Origin: Gorillibacterium timonense
GTDB taxonomy: Bacteria; Bacillota; Bacilli; Paenibacillales; NBRC-103111
Length of the DNA: 64,000 bases
NCBI RefSeq assembly: GCF_001457415.1
Contig: NZ_LN881723.1
Location: 405,246 to 469,245, forward strand
Direction: 5' to 3'
The position numbers were made by a program, and so were the translations under genes. Positions 56,237-64,000 of the stretch are shown here, piece after piece (the stretch's first letter is position 1; every line of letters starts with the position of its first letter). The notes beneath the pieces were generated by a model. It was not told the DNA's origin and did no database searches. It saw only the letters and a list, made by a program, of their open reading frames with translations.

Positions 56237-56240
56237 GAGG
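56222..56240. other. Probable element-sigK junction (attachment site)
   Basis: On the minus strand the sequence ACCGAAATCCTCATGCAC leads into sigK. GAAATCCTCATGCAC encodes the SigK residues EILMH, while bases further upstream do not match SigK and contain a TAG. The crossover of the Bacillus element lies in the same ENEILM codon region. The exact core cannot be set from one end. Confidence 0.65.
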
Positions 56241-56252
56241 ATTTCGGTTCTA

Positions 56253-56277: not shown

Positions 56278-56293
56278 CGTCCATGAATTAGAT

Positions 56294-56878
56294 CTATTCT
56301 AGGTGCTTCTCAACTTTCCTTACCCACTCAGGCAGCTCAGCAGATCGATAAATAACGCGTTTTTGGTCGGCTTCCATTACGATCTTACCATCTGACTCAC
56401 TATTGTCGACCAGAACCAAATGATCGATAAGATCAAGATGAGCAAGTAAATTCTCTATGGAGGTATGATGCCGCCTTATGATATCCTCAGATGGAATATG
56501 ATGACCGCCATTTTTCACCCGGGCGGCAACCCTTTCGATATTCAATCGATAGTCACCTAATCCAACATAGAACATGACAACCTCAAAGCCTTTATTCTTC
56601 GCTTCACGCATTTGGCGAATAACGTTACCGCCTGCCAAAGTCGTCTCGATTGAAAAATCACGTTTGTTACGAATACAATCTCTTACTATCTTAATTGCTT
56701 CTTTTCCGGCACTTACTTTGTAACGCTCGGGTTGTTCAGCATCAATCGCGCGAGCGAGTGCATCTGCATCAATATTTATACTAACACCAATACGATCCAC
56801 AATCAGATTGCGAATTGTACTTTTGCCACTGCCGTTATTACCAGCGAACACAAACATGGTTGCTAGTGGGCTATTCAT
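56294..56878 (-). CDS. Zeta-toxin-like P-loop kinase
   Basis: The 194-residue protein has a Walker A loop AGNNGSGKST at about 12-21, an INIDADALA motif, ETTLAGG and a late RVAARVKNGGHHIP block. This fits the zeta toxin/AAA kinase group, whose classic members phosphorylate UDP-N-acetylglucosamine and stop wall synthesis. Its start overlaps the preceding 65-residue gene by eight bases, the arrangement of toxin-antitoxin pairs. It is the element gene nearest sigK. Some family members are not toxins. Confidence 0.78.
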   Translation of the reverse strand: MNSPLATMFVFAGNNGSGKSTIRNLIVDRIGVSINIDADALARAIDAEQPERYKVSAGKEAIKIVRDCIRNKRDFSIETTLAGGNVIRQMREAKNKGFEVVMFYVGLGDYRLNIERVAARVKNGGHHIPSEDIIRRHHTSIENLLAHLDLIDHLVLVDNSESDGKIVMEADQKRVIYRSAELPEWVRKVEKHLE

Positions 56879-57068
56879 TGTAGAGCTCCAAATCCTCGAT
56901 ACGTTCTATTTTCCCATCGCTATATTCCCTAACCATATAACCTTCACTTGTTTTGTACACAATGTATGTGCCGTTAGCTTTTGCATCCAATTTCGCTCGA
57001 TCGCCTGTTAGTTTAATGAACTTATTTAAGTCCTGTATCCGGTTCACACGTATCACCGCCTGAGTCAT
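56871..57068 (-). CDS. Small partner of the zeta-like kinase, candidate antitoxin
   Basis: The 65-residue protein (MTQAVIRVNRIQDLNKF) is mixed alpha/beta with an acidic tail (RIEDLELYNE) and has no motif I recognise. Overlap with the kinase gene and order (small gene first) suggest an antitoxin. Epsilon-type antitoxins are helical, and this one does not clearly resemble them. Confidence 0.55.
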   Translation of the reverse strand: MTQAVIRVNRIQDLNKFIKLTGDRAKLDAKANGTYIVYKTSEGYMVREYSDGKIERIEDLELYNE

Positions 57069-57207
57069 TGTGTTATTCAGGAATTAGCCTCAACCATCTA
57101 TTCCTAAAATTATAACATAAGGACCTTTACACAAACAGCTAAGCTCATGATCTACCACTTGATGCCGACATTGCGGCGTCAATCACTTCAGTAACCATAG
57201 AGCATAA

Positions 57208-59634
57208 TTATAAGTTCATTCCGTGATATCCCATTGCAGCATAACCCTTGACACGTTTCTTGTACATGGCCATAAGCATCGGTACCTGCAAGTCTACATA
57301 ATCATAAATCTGCACATCAAGTTTATTGTGATGGGTTCGATGAAGACGTCCAGCATATTGCTGAAGCGTCCCCTTCCAAGAGATGGGATGGACCAGGAAT
57401 AACGTATCCAGCCGCGCATCGTCAAAACCCTCTCCGATCAGCTTTCCGGTAGCAATAAATACTCGTTCTTCGGAATCGGATATGGAAGCGATTTGCCCCC
57501 TTAAGGCTTCCCGTTGCTTTTTCCCCATACCACCACGCAGGACAACCACATTCTTTGCAAAATGCTTCAGGCGATTTTCAAAGTATTCCACATGAGCGGT
57601 ACGTTCCGTCAAAAGGATTGGTGATCGCCCTTGATCCAACGCCTTAAGCAAGTCATCAAAAATCATGTTATTTCGTTCTTCATCTTCGACCAATAGCTTA
57701 TAGATCTCTTGAATGCCCGGTGAAAATAGGGCTTGAGGTGTACGGAAACTGGTATAGCGAGGAATCACTTTTTGCTCCAACCCCCGAGATTGAGCCTGCG
57801 ACTTCGCATCTATTGACACGCGAATCGGACCGCATTGCATGAGAACGATCGGTTGATGTCCATCCTTCCTGGATGGGGTTGCAGTTAGACCCAGAACATA
57901 TTTGGCCTTAGCTTTTTTCAACACCTGCTCAAAGCTAAAAGCCGAAACATGGTGACATTCATCTACAATGATTTGGCCGTATTCCTCTATATATTCCTTA
58001 ATGGCGCCTTTATAGTTCAAGCTTTGTATAACCGCGATATCTACGATTCCAGTTCGTTTGTCCTTGCCTCCGCCGATGATGCCAATATTCTTCTTGTCCA
58101 TTTTCAAAAAAGCACCCAGCCGTTCTCTCCACTGATCCATGAGCTCTCTTCGGTGGACGAGTACCAAGGTGTTTACTTTTCTGGAGGCAATAATAGAAGC
58201 TGCAACGACGGTCTTGCCAAACGCGGTTGTGGCCGATAAGATCCCCGTTTCATGAGTAAGCATAGATCTTGTAGCACCATCCTGCAGCATGGAAAGTGTC
58301 CCATTGAAGTTAACATCAATCGGACAACCAGGATTACGTTCGTCCGATACAACCAGTTCAATTTGATTCGTTTTCATTAAGTCCGACATTTTTCCATGAC
58401 AACCTCTAGGTATCGCAAGATAGTTGTCGTAATCGTCAAAACAGCCGATAACCCGAGGCTTGCCGTAAGTCGGCAATCTCATGGCCTGTGTCTTATAGAA
58501 ATCAGGATTTTGAAACATAGCCAAAGCTTGCAGCCTCTGAATGAATGGCGAAGGAAGCCCATTTTTTTCGATATAGATCATGTTGGAAAGAACTACTCGA
58601 ACCCGTTCGGGGAGTTGTCCCATATCTAATGATGGATTGTGCATTCCACCATCTAACCAAGGTCGCTCGCTATTTTCATCTTCTGTTTCATTCCATACGT
58701 TTGTGCCAAGTGGGGACTCCCCTTTCGTCAACTCTAAGACTAGTCTTTGAGCTTCACCCAAGCTAATTTTCCCAAGACCCGACAAGAAGCTCCACTGGTC
58801 GTGATACGGTTGAAACCGTTCATCGATAAAGACGCTGTTGCCTTCTATGCGAGGTCCCCCCTGCAGAGGCAAAGCAATCAAATTCCCAAAACCACCTTTA
58901 GGCAGCGTGTCTTGGTTTGGAAATAATCGATCGTAGGAGTCTAAAGAGAGCTGATAATGGCGCTCCCTTGTTTTGGTTAATAAGGCACTTCCTAATTTTC
59001 TGGCGAGACTCGCTTCTACCGGCTGATCAAAGAACAACCAGACATGCCCCCCGTTTCCCGAACGTGAGCGTTCAAGAGCTGAAGGAATATGATGTGCCTT
59101 ACAAGTATCCATTACAGCAAAAGCATCTTGCTTCCAATTGTGTTTGTCAAAGTCCATGGCAAGAAACCAGCAGGTTTCATCTTTTAGCATGGGATAAACA
59201 CCTACGGTACGGTTTATCTTTGCATTCAGATGGCGGGCATAAATATCATCCGATACCATTTCGAAAGCTTGATAAGAACAATTAGAGCATTTAATCCGGG
59301 GCTTATTACAAACAGGTGACCGATCATTCTTACAAACAGGTGAATATCCCGATTTCCCCGTTTTGCTTGTCCATCTAACGGGATATACATCCTCCCTCCC
59401 TCGAAAAAGAGAACGGAATAAAGCGATTTTGTCCTCTGGTCTCGATTGGAGGTGGACCTGGCCCACGGGAGGCTGTTCGTGATCAATAGTAATTTCATTA
59501 GTGGGTGTACTCTCTTTGAAATCATCAAGCTCCAAATATTTAGACAACTGATGTCTTAAATGTTGGTTTTCTAATCGAAGCGATTCAATTTCTTTCAAAG
59601 CCTGAGCAAGCCGCTGCTCCAAATTCCGATCCAT
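57208..59634 (-). CDS. TOTE-type primase-helicase fusion
   Basis: The 808-residue protein begins with a coiled coil (about 1-35), then a zinc-knuckle region with paired cysteines (CKNDRSPVC, CSNC; about 110-135). An archaeo-eukaryotic-primase-like domain follows, with LAMDFDKHNW (acidic metal site, about 175) and SRSGNGGHVWLFF (about 205). The C-terminal half is a superfamily 2 helicase: FGKTVVAASII, IIVDECHH (about 600), GLTATPSRKDG and QYAGRLHR. This architecture is that of TOTE conflict-system proteins predicted to act against foreign nucleic acid. It starts 46 bases after the recombinase stop and may share its transcript. ATG 59634 has GGGAGG. Confidence 0.83.
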   Translation of the reverse strand: MDRNLEQRLAQALKEIESLRLENQHLRHQLSKYLELDDFKESTPTNEITIDHEQPPVGQVHLQSRPEDKIALFRSLFRGREDVYPVRWTSKTGKSGYSPVCKNDRSPVCNKPRIKCSNCSYQAFEMVSDDIYARHLNAKINRTVGVYPMLKDETCWFLAMDFDKHNWKQDAFAVMDTCKAHHIPSALERSRSGNGGHVWLFFDQPVEASLARKLGSALLTKTRERHYQLSLDSYDRLFPNQDTLPKGGFGNLIALPLQGGPRIEGNSVFIDERFQPYHDQWSFLSGLGKISLGEAQRLVLELTKGESPLGTNVWNETEDENSERPWLDGGMHNPSLDMGQLPERVRVVLSNMIYIEKNGLPSPFIQRLQALAMFQNPDFYKTQAMRLPTYGKPRVIGCFDDYDNYLAIPRGCHGKMSDLMKTNQIELVVSDERNPGCPIDVNFNGTLSMLQDGATRSMLTHETGILSATTAFGKTVVAASIIASRKVNTLVLVHRRELMDQWRERLGAFLKMDKKNIGIIGGGKDKRTGIVDIAVIQSLNYKGAIKEYIEEYGQIIVDECHHVSAFSFEQVLKKAKAKYVLGLTATPSRKDGHQPIVLMQCGPIRVSIDAKSQAQSRGLEQKVIPRYTSFRTPQALFSPGIQEIYKLLVEDEERNNMIFDDLLKALDQGRSPILLTERTAHVEYFENRLKHFAKNVVVLRGGMGKKQREALRGQIASISDSEERVFIATGKLIGEGFDDARLDTLFLVHPISWKGTLQQYAGRLHRTHHNKLDVQIYDYVDLQVPMLMAMYKKRVKGYAAMGYHGMNL

Positions 59635-59680
59635 ACATCCTCCCAGGCCACACTTGGTTTGTTCCTGAATCAATCCGGTA

Positions 59681-61186
59681 TTAAAACGTAAAAATCTCAA
59701 CCGAATCCTCATACACCCGTATTTCCCGTACAACCTGCCGGATTAAATCTCGCTTCTCTTCAAACGCCAGCTCGTTTTGCCCTTTTGACAGATAATACTG
59801 AACGGCTTCCATCAGGACGTTAATGTTGTACTCATTGTTCTGCGTAGAATTCAACATATCAGACAACTCGGCTAGTTGGTTGATCAGAGCTTCCTCTTTC
59901 TGAGTTAACTCCTTCAATTCCTGCCGAATTTCCTCTTCCCCAATAAAGTCTTCACTGGCTGCAAACAATTTGATTAGTTTTTTTCGGGCGTTTTTAGTTT
60001 TTTCGATTTCCTTTTCGATCCTGGCTATTTCTCCAGTTTCAAAAGGCTCTTTTGTCTTCTCCTGTTGCAACGCCGCGGCAATTTCGTCAGGATTATTTAA
60101 CCAACTTGCGACTTGCTCCCATACTTGATCTTCGATCATCTGGGCTTTGATTCTTCTACCGCAGCCTTTAAGTTTTGCACCTGCAGTATTTTTAATATCT
60201 GTATACTCAGGAACCTTTTTGCCCCAATTATTTGATAATCGCCCGGTCATTGTATTGCCGCAGTCTCCGCATCTAAGCAAGCCACTTAATAAATATGGAT
60301 GCTTACTCTTCTGTGCCCATCTTCGACGTGATTCTGAAAGCAGTCTCTGGGCGTGTTCAAACTGGGCCTCTTCGATAATGGGGGGGCAAGGTATCAGGAT
60401 CCAATCACTCTTTGGCCTCTCCCGCATTGGAACCTTTTCCTCATCTTTTCTATGCTTGTTGCCAAGCATCCCTTCGGTATTCCAACGATTCTGATAAAAC
60501 TCGCCAATATAGGCTCGATTCATTATGATTTGTCTAACGACTTGACGATGCCATACTGGAGCTCCTCGTTTGGTAGGTACACCTTTGCTAGTTAAATATA
60601 GTGCGATACCATTTAACCCTTGAACCATTGTGTTCGGCTGAGTAAATAAATCAAAAATCAATCTTACGATTGCGGCTTCGTCTTCATTGACAAGGAATTG
60701 CTCCGACTCTTTGTCATAACTATATCCGTAGACTTGAAAATCTCTCAACACTTTACCTTGTCGCGCTTTTTCTCGTCTGCCGCGGCTCATTCGTTCGTTA
60801 ATTTTGGATTTTTCAAATTCGGCTATCGCCCCACGCATAGAATAGAACAGGTTTCCTTCCGGGGTTTTGGAATACTCTCCATTAACGAATACCAGTTCTA
60901 TTCCTCTTCTATCGAATTCATCCGTTATGATTAATTGGTTCATTAATTTCCGCGATAAACGGTCGGGATCCAGACATATGATTTTGCTTATGATCCCTTC
61001 TCTAACATCTTCCCGTAATTTGGTTAAGGCTGGTCTATCTAGAAACTCTCCAGATATCCCATCGTCCACATATTCTTTAACTTTATTCGTCTCCGCTTTC
61101 ATCCGACACTGACGAATCTGATCGTTCAGGCTGAATCCATGTTTTGCTTGTTCTTCTGTGCTCACCCTGGCGTAAATAGCGATCAT
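59681..61186 (-). CDS. Large serine recombinase, SpoIVCA-like
   Basis: The 501-residue protein begins MIAIYARVSTEEQA, with the catalytic Ser at residue 9, and has the resolvase core (DPDRLSRKLMNQLI, VNGEYSKTPEG, GAIAEFEKSKI), a recombinase domain (VWHRQVVRQIIMN), a zinc-ribbon part and a long coiled coil (about 385-450). It closely resembles SpoIVCA, which excises the skin element from sigK in the Bacillus mother cell. In the zinc ribbon the first CGDCG pair and the last Cys (GCGR) are present, but the third ligand position reads YTDIKN where SpoIVCA has YTCRKN. It lies 3.4 kb inside the element. Confidence 0.93.
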   Translation of the reverse strand: MIAIYARVSTEEQAKHGFSLNDQIRQCRMKAETNKVKEYVDDGISGEFLDRPALTKLREDVREGIISKIICLDPDRLSRKLMNQLIITDEFDRRGIELVFVNGEYSKTPEGNLFYSMRGAIAEFEKSKINERMSRGRREKARQGKVLRDFQVYGYSYDKESEQFLVNEDEAAIVRLIFDLFTQPNTMVQGLNGIALYLTSKGVPTKRGAPVWHRQVVRQIIMNRAYIGEFYQNRWNTEGMLGNKHRKDEEKVPMRERPKSDWILIPCPPIIEEAQFEHAQRLLSESRRRWAQKSKHPYLLSGLLRCGDCGNTMTGRLSNNWGKKVPEYTDIKNTAGAKLKGCGRRIKAQMIEDQVWEQVASWLNNPDEIAAALQQEKTKEPFETGEIARIEKEIEKTKNARKKLIKLFAASEDFIGEEEIRQELKELTQKEEALINQLAELSDMLNSTQNNEYNINVLMEAVQYYLSKGQNELAFEEKRDLIRQVVREIRVYEDSVEIFTF

Positions 61187-61326
61187 GTTTCTCCCTCCTG
61201 AACTTCTCTAGGAGATAATCATAACAGGCCATGCGTATTTTGTCATTAGAGTCACCCACAATCAATTTCACATGCACCCGGCATCCCTCCTAATGGAGAA
61301 TATGCGGATACGGCTTGGACACTTGA

Positions 61327-61370
61327 TAAAAATAAACGCGACCATAAACATGTAACATGTCTATGATCGC
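61327..61370 (-). terminator. Terminator after the pPIWI-RE/YhaM-like genes
   Basis: GCGATCATAGACATG pairs with CATGTTTATGGTCGC (two G-T or mismatch positions) around TTA, followed on the minus strand by GTTTATTTTTATC. It separates the pPIWI-RE unit from the recombinase unit. Confidence 0.85.
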
Positions 61371-61414: not shown

Positions 61415-61558
61415 TCAATGACTGTGATAATCGGCAAGCACGAGATCCAAATAATCTTTAGGTATAGAACTACTGGTCTGCTTTGCTTCTATTTCTTTGA
61501 TCAAATAATACCCGACGAATTCTTCACCATCTCTTAAGTTTTTGATTAATGAAGTCAT
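61415..61558 (-). CDS. 47-residue ORF resembling the N-terminus of YhaM-type nucleases
   Basis: The ORF begins ATG at 61558, overlapping the pPIWI-RE stop by four bases (ATGA), and encodes MTSLIKNLRDGEEFVGYYLI, then KQTSSSIPKDYLDLVLAD and a stop. That pattern is the start of the OB-fold of YhaM-family 3'-5' exoribonucleases, which normally continue for about 300 residues with an HD domain. Nothing like the HD part follows; a terminator does. It is either a truncated gene or a small OB-like partner of the pPIWI-RE protein. Confidence 0.55.
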   Translation of the reverse strand: MTSLIKNLRDGEEFVGYYLIKEIEAKQTSSSIPKDYLDLVLADYHSH

Positions 61559-64000
61559 GATGTCACCTCTACATAATCTTCCTCCGAGTCCATCTCCACT
61601 TCCTCTTCAAACTCAGCATCGTAATCATAATCGTCTTCATTACCGGTTATATATTTCGATAATGAGCTCAGTACACGCATCGTGTACGGAAAAATGGTGT
61701 GCTTATCATAAGTCAACCCTAATCGTCTTAGATGATCCGCTAGAAGAGCAAGTTCATCCGACTCGTTTTCATTCTCTGCTCCTAAGGGAATGTATTCCAC
61801 AGCCCGTTGTTGGAGCAATAATTTGGAAGGCGATGAAAACTTGATTGCATCGTTAGCGATTCCTTTCCATGCATTCGGTCTTCCGCCCACACCGTAATAA
61901 ATACCTGCAGGGTCCTTAAAAACTCCTAATGCTTTAGTAAACCTGTTCATCTCATCATCAATAATGATTCGATATTGAGGAATGTCATCCGTCGCGTTAA
62001 TGCGGATGAACCTTAATCGTGTCTCATTGGCCAAACGCTCATTAAGATAAGGAACACGATCGCATTGTATTTTTGAATTACCGATAGCCCCCAACCAACC
62101 GTGTCTTAATGTAGCGTTGATAAGCACAATGACTTGCCCCGAACTTCGTTCTAGTTCACTGTGAATCTCAGCTGTGATAAATGCTTTAAACACTTCGCTG
62201 CTTTTATTTTCTCTTCGAGGATTATCAAGAAATTTAGATTCATCCATTTTCAGTGCCGCTTCAGACAAAGTCATCCACCTATCATTACCTAATAGCTTAA
62301 CACTGAGATCCGTGCCGTCTAATCTTGAAATGGCAGGCAGATATTTTTTTCCAGCTTTTATGACAGATATAGATAACAACGTTCCAGACGCATTGATCTT
62401 ATTGACGTTATCACTAAATAGACCATAATCGTTGAAAAGGTCTACTACAGCATTCAGAATGCGGGATAAATCTCCTTTCTCATCACCTGTTAGTGGGTGA
62501 ATAAATTGCGATAGTCGCCCTGTCATCTTCAATCCTTCCCGAATAGCTTTCTTAGGGTCGGCCCCCTCTCTCCACTTACTCTTCTCTTCAATTTCTACAA
62601 GAGCTAATACCGAGTGGTTAGGTTGTTCAACTTTGGAAAGTTGCTTCACAATTTGATTAATACGCTTTTCTTGAGCAATCGAGTTATCCTTATATCTATC
62701 AATCTCTAATTCCGATGTTATGATGTCTGGATTACAATGGACAAGTTCAACAATGAACTCTTTATCCGAATTTAATCTGAAGACGGAGTCAGAAATCTCA
62801 TCAAGAATAGTTACGTTATCAATTGACTTTTGCGCTGTAGATAGTTCTTTTATTACTGCTTCAAACATCTCGGTAGAACTATAAATCTCGATAGTTATTC
62901 GCTCTTCCTTAGGAACAACGATTGGAAAGCGATTGTCATTCATACCTCTAAGAGAAATATCAGGAATAAGTTGAAGTTCTCTTGCACCATAATTCGTTAA
63001 GAACCCTTTGGCCAAGTTATACAAACCGCTTTTCTCTGGAAGGCCGATTCCCGCTTTCACACTATTTCCAGTAAATAGATTGTTGTTCACGACATAAGCC
63101 GTGATTTCTCCATCCCCATCGGAATAGACCTTGGGATTCACAAGCAACGAATCTGCCTCGAAAGACTCCCCATTCAGCACATCCCAATACAATTCGTCTA
63201 ATGCGCTCTCCCATGATGTATATGAAGAGTTGCGAGGACGTCTTTCAAATTTCAATTGGGAAAATGAACGATCTAAGCTCGTAACATATGGATTTTGAAC
63301 AGATACCAAAACCGAACAGTAATGCCCAGACCTCATGTAGCACTTGCCTTCTTTGATTTGTACATCGCTCAAATACCTTCTTGTCCCCAAGGAAACCGTT
63401 AGTATGGCTCGATCAGCATCTCCCCCACGAGTCTTCAATGCAAATCGAATGACATAAGAAAATGGATCATGACGATGAGATTTTCGAATCGGATTAGAAA
63501 TGCATTCGTGTTTATCATTAAAGATAACATGATAGAATTTCAGCTCTTCACGTAGCTCATTACCTAAATCAAGAAACTTTGATTCCTGGCAGAACTTGAC
63601 TGCTGCCATGCCGGGAACCCACTGGTAGTTATCAACGAATTCGTGAACATCACCAAACGTAGAAGAAGCCCAAACAAGCTCCGAATCTCTTACGTCTTGC
63701 GGTAAATCAGGAATCGAATAATCCTTTAAATGTGCTAGCCATCCAAGCGTCAAATGTTTTATATACGATGAATGAATAGGTTTTGTGGAAACTAGCCAAG
63801 GCTGATCATCGAGCAACACCTTGTTGTTTGAACATACGCTTACGATTTCAGGAAAAATACTTTTAAGCTTCTTTCCTAGAGGTTCTACTTTAAATGCAAG
63901 CTTAAAGCGATCTGTACGCTCTCTATTAAAGAAGTTTCTCCAGCTCTCCGGCATTTTCATATAATAGATAGTTTCGTTATAAAACAGCGTTTCATCAATC
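61555..64000 (-). CDS. pPIWI-RE family protein, 5' end cut by the window edge
   Basis: The frame runs open past the ATG at 63960 to the right edge (preceding residues read DETLFYNETIYYMKMP), so the true start is outside. The visible 815 residues fit the pPIWI-RE (DUF3962 plus RNase H/PIWI-like) family: an N-terminal DUF3962-type start (MPESWRNFF), a C-terminal fold with VIVLINATLRHGW, the Arg block LRFIRINATDD, GIYYGVGGRP and the Glu block RAVEYIPL, and the closing LADHLRRLG. It ends in a very acidic tail. These proteins are argonaute-like and occur with a DinG-type helicase and a nuclease; those partners are not in view. Recognition is from memory. Confidence 0.75.
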   Translation of the reverse strand, partial: IDETLFYNETIYYMKMPESWRNFFNRERTDRFKLAFKVEPLGKKLKSIFPEIVSVCSNNKVLLDDQPWLVSTKPIHSSYIKHLTLGWLAHLKDYSIPDLPQDVRDSELVWASSTFGDVHEFVDNYQWVPGMAAVKFCQESKFLDLGNELREELKFYHVIFNDKHECISNPIRKSHRHDPFSYVIRFALKTRGGDADRAILTVSLGTRRYLSDVQIKEGKCYMRSGHYCSVLVSVQNPYVTSLDRSFSQLKFERRPRNSSYTSWESALDELYWDVLNGESFEADSLLVNPKVYSDGDGEITAYVVNNNLFTGNSVKAGIGLPEKSGLYNLAKGFLTNYGARELQLIPDISLRGMNDNRFPIVVPKEERITIEIYSSTEMFEAVIKELSTAQKSIDNVTILDEISDSVFRLNSDKEFIVELVHCNPDIITSELEIDRYKDNSIAQEKRINQIVKQLSKVEQPNHSVLALVEIEEKSKWREGADPKKAIREGLKMTGRLSQFIHPLTGDEKGDLSRILNAVVDLFNDYGLFSDNVNKINASGTLLSISVIKAGKKYLPAISRLDGTDLSVKLLGNDRWMTLSEAALKMDESKFLDNPRRENKSSEVFKAFITAEIHSELERSSGQVIVLINATLRHGWLGAIGNSKIQCDRVPYLNERLANETRLRFIRINATDDIPQYRIIIDDEMNRFTKALGVFKDPAGIYYGVGGRPNAWKGIANDAIKFSSPSKLLLQQRAVEYIPLGAENENESDELALLADHLRRLGLTYDKHTIFPYTMRVLSSLSKYITGNEDDYDYDAEFEEEVEMDSEEDYVEVTS

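Follow-up and report, generated by a model that had tools for sequence, protein, structure and literature searches.

A TOTE-type primase-helicase gene lies behind the large serine recombinase gene of a sigK-intervening (skin-type) element, and it is very probably acquired cargo of that element rather than part of its excision machinery. The window analysed is a stretch of 64,000 nucleotides (G000:C6:405246-469245) that contains one end of the element; the element itself (G000:C6:461490-513992, from window position 56245 to past the window end) is a defence island. On balance, we favor a reading in which TOTE is cargo of a skin-type element turned defence island, interferes with invading DNA and is dispensable for excision. 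Two things are new here: TOTE's residence in a sigK element that carries defence cargo, and evidence for an insertion as the origin of its adjacency to the recombinase. The features discussed are listed in Table 1.

Table 1. Features at the recombinase end of the sigK element (window positions unless a contig position is given).
Feature	Position	Strand	Remarks
sigK C-terminal half, 118 aa	55880..56236	-	
Recombination core candidate GAAATCCT	56238..56245	-	common to N-half junction
Cargo insertion, approximate extent ~3.4 kb	56283..59680		between attachment arm and recombinase stop; L079, L080, L081, L083 and L085 lack it
Zeta-toxin-like P-loop kinase, 194 aa	56294..56878	-	PF06414, E 7e-10
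65-aa ORF	56871..57068	-	overlaps zeta-like gene start by 8 bp
TOTE-type primase-helicase gene	57208..59634	-	ATG start, 808 aa, without internal stop
Gap between recombinase and TOTE, 46 bp	59635..59680	-	ribosome-binding-site-like GGGAGG just 5' of ATG (by eye)
Large serine recombinase, SpoIVCA-type, 501 aa	59681..61186	-	
Intrinsic terminator	61338..61370	-	15-bp stem and T-run; between pPIWI-RE and recombinase
pPIWI-RE protein	61555..63960	-	801 aa inside window; 824 aa if start upstream of window edge
sigK N half	G000:C6:513975-514355		truncated sigma-70 region-2 gene; outside window

Domains, residues and predicted fold of the TOTE protein

The TOTE protein comprises a helix (residues 3-35), zinc-type cysteines (101-119), a PrimPol (67-305) and an XPB-like helicase (~341-800). 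Residues 68-295 match nearly the entire Pfam model AEP-TOTE, the TOTE conflict system primase domain (PF22548, E 8.9e-97), and the score of 323.6 bits against a gathering score of 27 places the protein in this family. The helicase part matches ResIII (E 3.2e-25, residues 460-589) and DEAD (E 1.1e-11); a match to Helicase_C falls slightly under the Pfam cut-off (E 1.3e-4, 22.7 bits vs 23.5). No nuclease domain was found in the protein. Full-length homologues in several phyla argue that the open reading frame is not a chance one. The AEP-TOTE and ResIII matches confirm the original prediction of a TOTE-type primase-helicase behind the recombinase.

The acidic site, the SGNGGH motif and the superfamily 2 helicase motifs, all predicted to be intact, are present. 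The primase part contains D161xD163, SGNGGH (192-197, including H197) and D235, and the helicase part contains GKT (473-475), DECH (558-561), R763 and R766. We take D161, D163, H197 and D235 to be the catalytic DxD, the SxH-type motif and the third acidic residue of an AEP. Across 22 aligned sequences, the catalytic motif residues are unchanged except G193, N194, G196, T475 and C560. The four cysteines of the proposed zinc-knuckle (C101, C109, C116 and C119) are also present; they are absent from three of the 22 aligned homologues (L095, L097, L132) and are thus dispensable for the family.

Structure prediction, proposed earlier as a check of the primase site, found the expected fold. In an AlphaFold2 model (16 sequences; mean pLDDT 82.2, pTM 0.68), residues 67-305 resemble the PrimPol domain of 7nqd_A, the CRISPR-associated Prim-Pol from Marinitoga (Z 24.5, rmsd 1.9 over 196 aa), so that the model has the CAPP catalytic fold. 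Residues 341-800 resemble archaeal XPB (5tnu_B, Z 25.0, rmsd 9.5; 6p4f_C, Z 23.4, rmsd 4.1 over 389), with further matches of the helicase part to T4 UvsW (Z ~22) and to RadD and SauUSI (Z ~17.5). A phmmer alignment pairs D161xD163 with the DxD of the Marinitoga Prim-Pol. Mutation of D177 and D179 abolishes activity of the Marinitoga enzyme, according to the available portion of its description (PMC8211822), and from the alignment offset these residues would correspond to D161 and D163. As judged from sequence and model, TOTE joins an intact PrimPol, with the fold of CRISPR-associated PrimPols, to an SF2 helicase resembling XPB and UvsW, and PrimPol plus translocase activity is predicted with high confidence.

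This architecture is already published as helicase-type CAPP. In the accessible text of PMC8211822, CAPP_A type 3 carries a helicase and is the most prevalent architecture among non-CRISPR homologues, typically in mobile and transposable elements. The fold of its primase part links TOTE to CAPP, but the NCBIfam model of CAPP type A1 (NF040561) gives 94.5 bits for TOTE, below its cut-off of 200, and neither Cas1 nor Cas2 was found among the sigK element proteins scanned. The PF22548 match links TOTE to TOTE conflict systems; unlike these, it has no conserved partner that we could find beside it, and here it is located behind a recombinase. The term TOTE was not found in the literature searched, whose coverage was limited. 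Primases of another AEP supergroup are nearly exclusive to mobile elements, as stated in the part of PMC5862659 available.

The sigK element and the insertion beside its recombinase

The core GAAATCCT occurs at C6:461490 and C6:513992, a core-to-core distance of 52,502 bp, and joining the sigK halves at the core yields a single open frame of 248 codons. The Resolvase, Recombinase and Zn ribbon domains of the recombinase all score above their Pfam cut-offs. At 42%, the GC content of the element is lower than that of the window's first 55 kb (55%). The element encodes a three-gene pPIWI-RE system (PprPIWI, PprDinG, PprRE), an McrB-like protein (PDC-M26A), Drt3a and Drt3b (DRT3), a SoFic-type Fic protein, and BrxA, PglZ, PglXI, BrxC and BrxF, a set that we take to be type III BREX. 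Bacillus subtilis skin and Clostridioides difficile skinCd likewise have a large serine recombinase and a split sigK with a common core, whose joined frame restores sigK (PMC5025042, in the text available). Unlike skin and skinCd, the element described here carries several defence systems among its cargo and has two gene modules between recombinase and attachment arm.

Defence-model matches other than generic helicases were also found in two of the three relatives with a ~91% identical recombinase (HerA-like in L079, PDC-S06 in L080); the defence-like genes of these relatives are different from those here. A 64-aa ORF (61083-61277, minus strand) overlaps the recombinase gene start, has a ribosome-binding-site-like stretch and is kept in L079-L083 at 47-80% identity. 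It could encode a small accessory protein, for example a directionality factor; alternatively, its conservation could simply follow from the overlap.

A search of 104 genomes of the host family gave recombinase matches at E 1e-60 in 17. The eight nearest recombinases besides the own copy (51-91% identity, at sigK) were fetched with their flanks and compared. The recombinase adjoins the sigK C half, as here, in six of these relatives and the N half in two (L084, L086). The coding distance from recombinase to sigK is 3,444 bp here vs 51 (L079), 55 (L080), 34 (L083) and 62 bp (L085). L081 has the same short layout at the DNA level, with a stop in the recombinase and a sigK half that looks degenerate. 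In these five same-end relatives the recombinase abuts the sigK half without TOTE; in the sixth, from another species, 1.1 kb of other cargo lies in between (L082:15739-16875), with a STAS-like ORF (by eye) and a small membrane ORF. TOTE is thus absent between recombinase and sigK in all six, and the attachment arm, which borders the insertion toward sigK, is conserved. The short recombinase-sigK spacing of the five relatives lacking TOTE argues that TOTE and the zeta-like kinase, together with the 65-aa ORF, form a 3.4-kb insertion. The L082 cargo suggests that this spot may take up cargo repeatedly.

The zeta-like kinase and the 65-aa ORF are arranged like a toxin-antitoxin pair, and a TATAAT box was noted by eye upstream of them. 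The 65-aa ORF has no family match in profile searches and is possibly the antitoxin partner of the kinase.

The 46-base spacing claimed at the outset is correct: the recombinase ends at 59681 and TOTE starts at 59634 on the same strand. This adjacency had raised the idea that TOTE helps the element by processing or replicating the excised circle, as proposed for SCCmec primase-helicase operons. The precedent is close in composition, since the Cch2/CCPol-MP operon places a primase-polymerase and a helicase next to a site-specific recombinase, upstream of its gene, in a chromosomal cassette (PMC7581432, in the sections available). TOTE genes on plasmids that lie between a Tn3 resolvase and a transposase (L089, L090) or beside RIT-like or TniQ modules also fit a helper. 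Unlike the SCCmec operon, however, TOTE is missing from close relatives of the element, being absent from five of the six same-end relatives, while the sixth carries other cargo. Nor did any of 39 Bacilli TOTE loci have a recombinase directly beside TOTE, as judged with a small panel of recombinases and transposases from which IS1595 and methylase rows were excluded, their frames being interrupted by stops, and with some flanks ending at contig ends; the nearest case is L130, where a 292-aa ORF resembling a serine recombinase lies 494 bp downstream of a shortened TOTE. The SCC-type conserved linkage of primase-helicase and recombinase is therefore lacking on both sides, and we rejected the recombinase-TOTE pair as a conserved unit. 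The helicase is also XPB/UvsW-like SF2 and not a hexameric initiator. Excised-circle processing by TOTE is unlikely, and a helper function, which we rank third, has little probability. As an insertion not common to close relatives, the adjacency loses most of its support for a circle-processing role.

Expression of TOTE may nevertheless depend on the recombinase gene. On the TOTE strand, the 46-bp gap contains no terminator-like or sigma-70-like site, so that recombinase and TOTE are plausibly made from one transcript and read-through from the recombinase transcript, the simplest reading, is probably the main source of TOTE protein. The best promoter match upstream of TOTE (6/12) stops 2 nt short of the ATG. 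Among 14 TOTE relatives, all but L040 and L050 have their best site ending 29-49 nt upstream, with scores that are individually weak, only two of the 14 beating shuffles at p<0.05. B. subtilis spoIVCA is controlled by sigma-E and SpoIIID, whereas constitutive expression is described for the recombinase of C. difficile (PMC5025042, portion available). Which type of control applies to the recombinase decides whether TOTE would be made in vegetative cells. A CATA-type site, sigK-like by a home-made pattern, is common to the recombinase upstream regions, and no sigma-E-like match was found there.

TOTE genes in Bacilli, plasmids and phages

PF22548 matches occur in 27 of 104 genomes of the host family, and a stricter protein search of 398 genomes sampled from the class found TOTE in 21. 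At least eight of 20 family copies fetched with flanks are split or shortened (L047, L048, L051-L056), some of which may reflect misassembly or the end of a contig (L052), suggesting that selection to keep TOTE is not strong. These broken copies, together with the lack of a detectable promoter of its own here, would suit a neutral passenger that happened to land next to the recombinase and is heading for decay. The present copy is an uninterrupted open frame whose catalytic residues are all intact, which speaks against such a passenger and leaves it the least probable of the readings weighed here.

No defence enrichment was found near TOTE in 38 Bacilli loci: 145 near ORFs matched 41 families and 127 more distant ORFs of these same loci matched 59 (PADLOC, E 1e-20), in a comparison that counts families matched, where one protein can match many and names come from the best 25 only. 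The commonest Pfam family near TOTE in Bacilli is DUF6155 (7 of 145 near ORFs); no other conserved neighbour and no conserved conflict-system partner were found. A DUF6155 protein of ~190 aa is encoded directly 3' of TOTE in a group of family genomes (L039, L040, L044, L046, L047).

TOTE homologues are present in 102 plasmid records. In 89 of these the match spans 80% or more of the query, and 44 of all 102 are classed as conjugative. This spread is what a general fork-rescue or DNA-establishment enzyme of plasmids and islands would show, one that re-primes and remodels stalled or single-stranded DNA without a role in defence. UvsW, RadD and XPB as nearest helicase folds and the lack of defence enrichment around TOTE in Bacilli point the same way. 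General repair is nonetheless a poor fit to patchy presence (the 27 family genomes) and frequent decay, and TOTE here shares its element with several named defence systems. We rank fork rescue second and regard it as rather unlikely.

Neighbours were counted by eye, as the next annotated CDS on either side, in 23 of the 102 plasmid regions, which were selected non-randomly from an incomplete PLSDB gene table. In 12 regions the next CDS on one side is a gene for recombination or transposition; in the other 11 it is not. Runs of tyrosine recombinases, presumably RIT-like, lie beside TOTE in six (L087, L098, L100, L145, L150, L151); the others have a Tn3 resolvase or transposase (L089, L090), TniQ (L144, L146), an IS5 transposase (L096) or another transposase (L149). 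Against a background of 11/153 such genes, counted in three stretches of 50 kb taken from three of these plasmids, Fisher p is 7e-7 for the raw count (12/23), 0.003 after collapsing by lineage (6/17) and 0.047 when IS elements are also left out (4/17). Given this non-random choice of regions, we treat the repeated finding of TOTE next to unrelated recombination modules as a lead. TOTE might on this basis be a module that repeatedly partners unrelated recombination machines (Tn3 resolvase/transposase, RIT-like trios, TniQ transposons, the sigK recombinase), rides their transcripts and repairs or primes DNA left by recombination, a proposal that we consider doubtful.

In L089 and L090, Pantoea and Escherichia albertii plasmids, TOTE lies between a Tn3-family resolvase (29 bp) and its transposase (22-23 bp); on Rhodobacterales plasmids (L087, L098, L100, L145, L151) a row of three tyrosine recombinase genes is found 39-70 bp away from it. 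No literature on RIT elements with a helicase was found.

We rejected the idea that TOTE is typically carried by phages. Although 43 phage records contain a match, none of these matches spans 80% of the query, and the matches among the best 25 of these 43 cover helicase residues only. Thirteen near-full-length copies are found in contigs labelled as viral (label as given). In two virus-labelled contigs (L156, L157) TOTE is near recombinase-like ORFs, recognized by eye from N-terminal sequence only.

Possible role and significance of TOTE in the sigK element

Defence is favored as the selected role of TOTE because the gene sits in an element with several named defence systems. This role, ranked first, is put forward tentatively: the lack of a defence neighbourhood in other Bacilli, the lack of a detectable nuclease domain and the broad plasmid spread count against it. 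In the defence reading, most TOTE protein would come from read-through of recombinase transcription. Its helicase would translocate on double-stranded or branched DNA and open it, and its PrimPol would lay DNA primers on the exposed strand. TOTE would thereby interfere with invading DNA, or with the replication of such DNA, in vegetative cells, and excision of the sigK element would proceed without need for it.

No paper describing a sigK-intervening element as a carrier of phage defence was found in a literature of limited coverage. The element described here carries several phage-defence systems in such a place: dividing cells keep the island, and the dying mother cell is expected to excise it. 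The recurrence of TOTE beside unrelated plasmid recombination modules in turn poses a testable question about the role of a widespread, little-studied enzyme.
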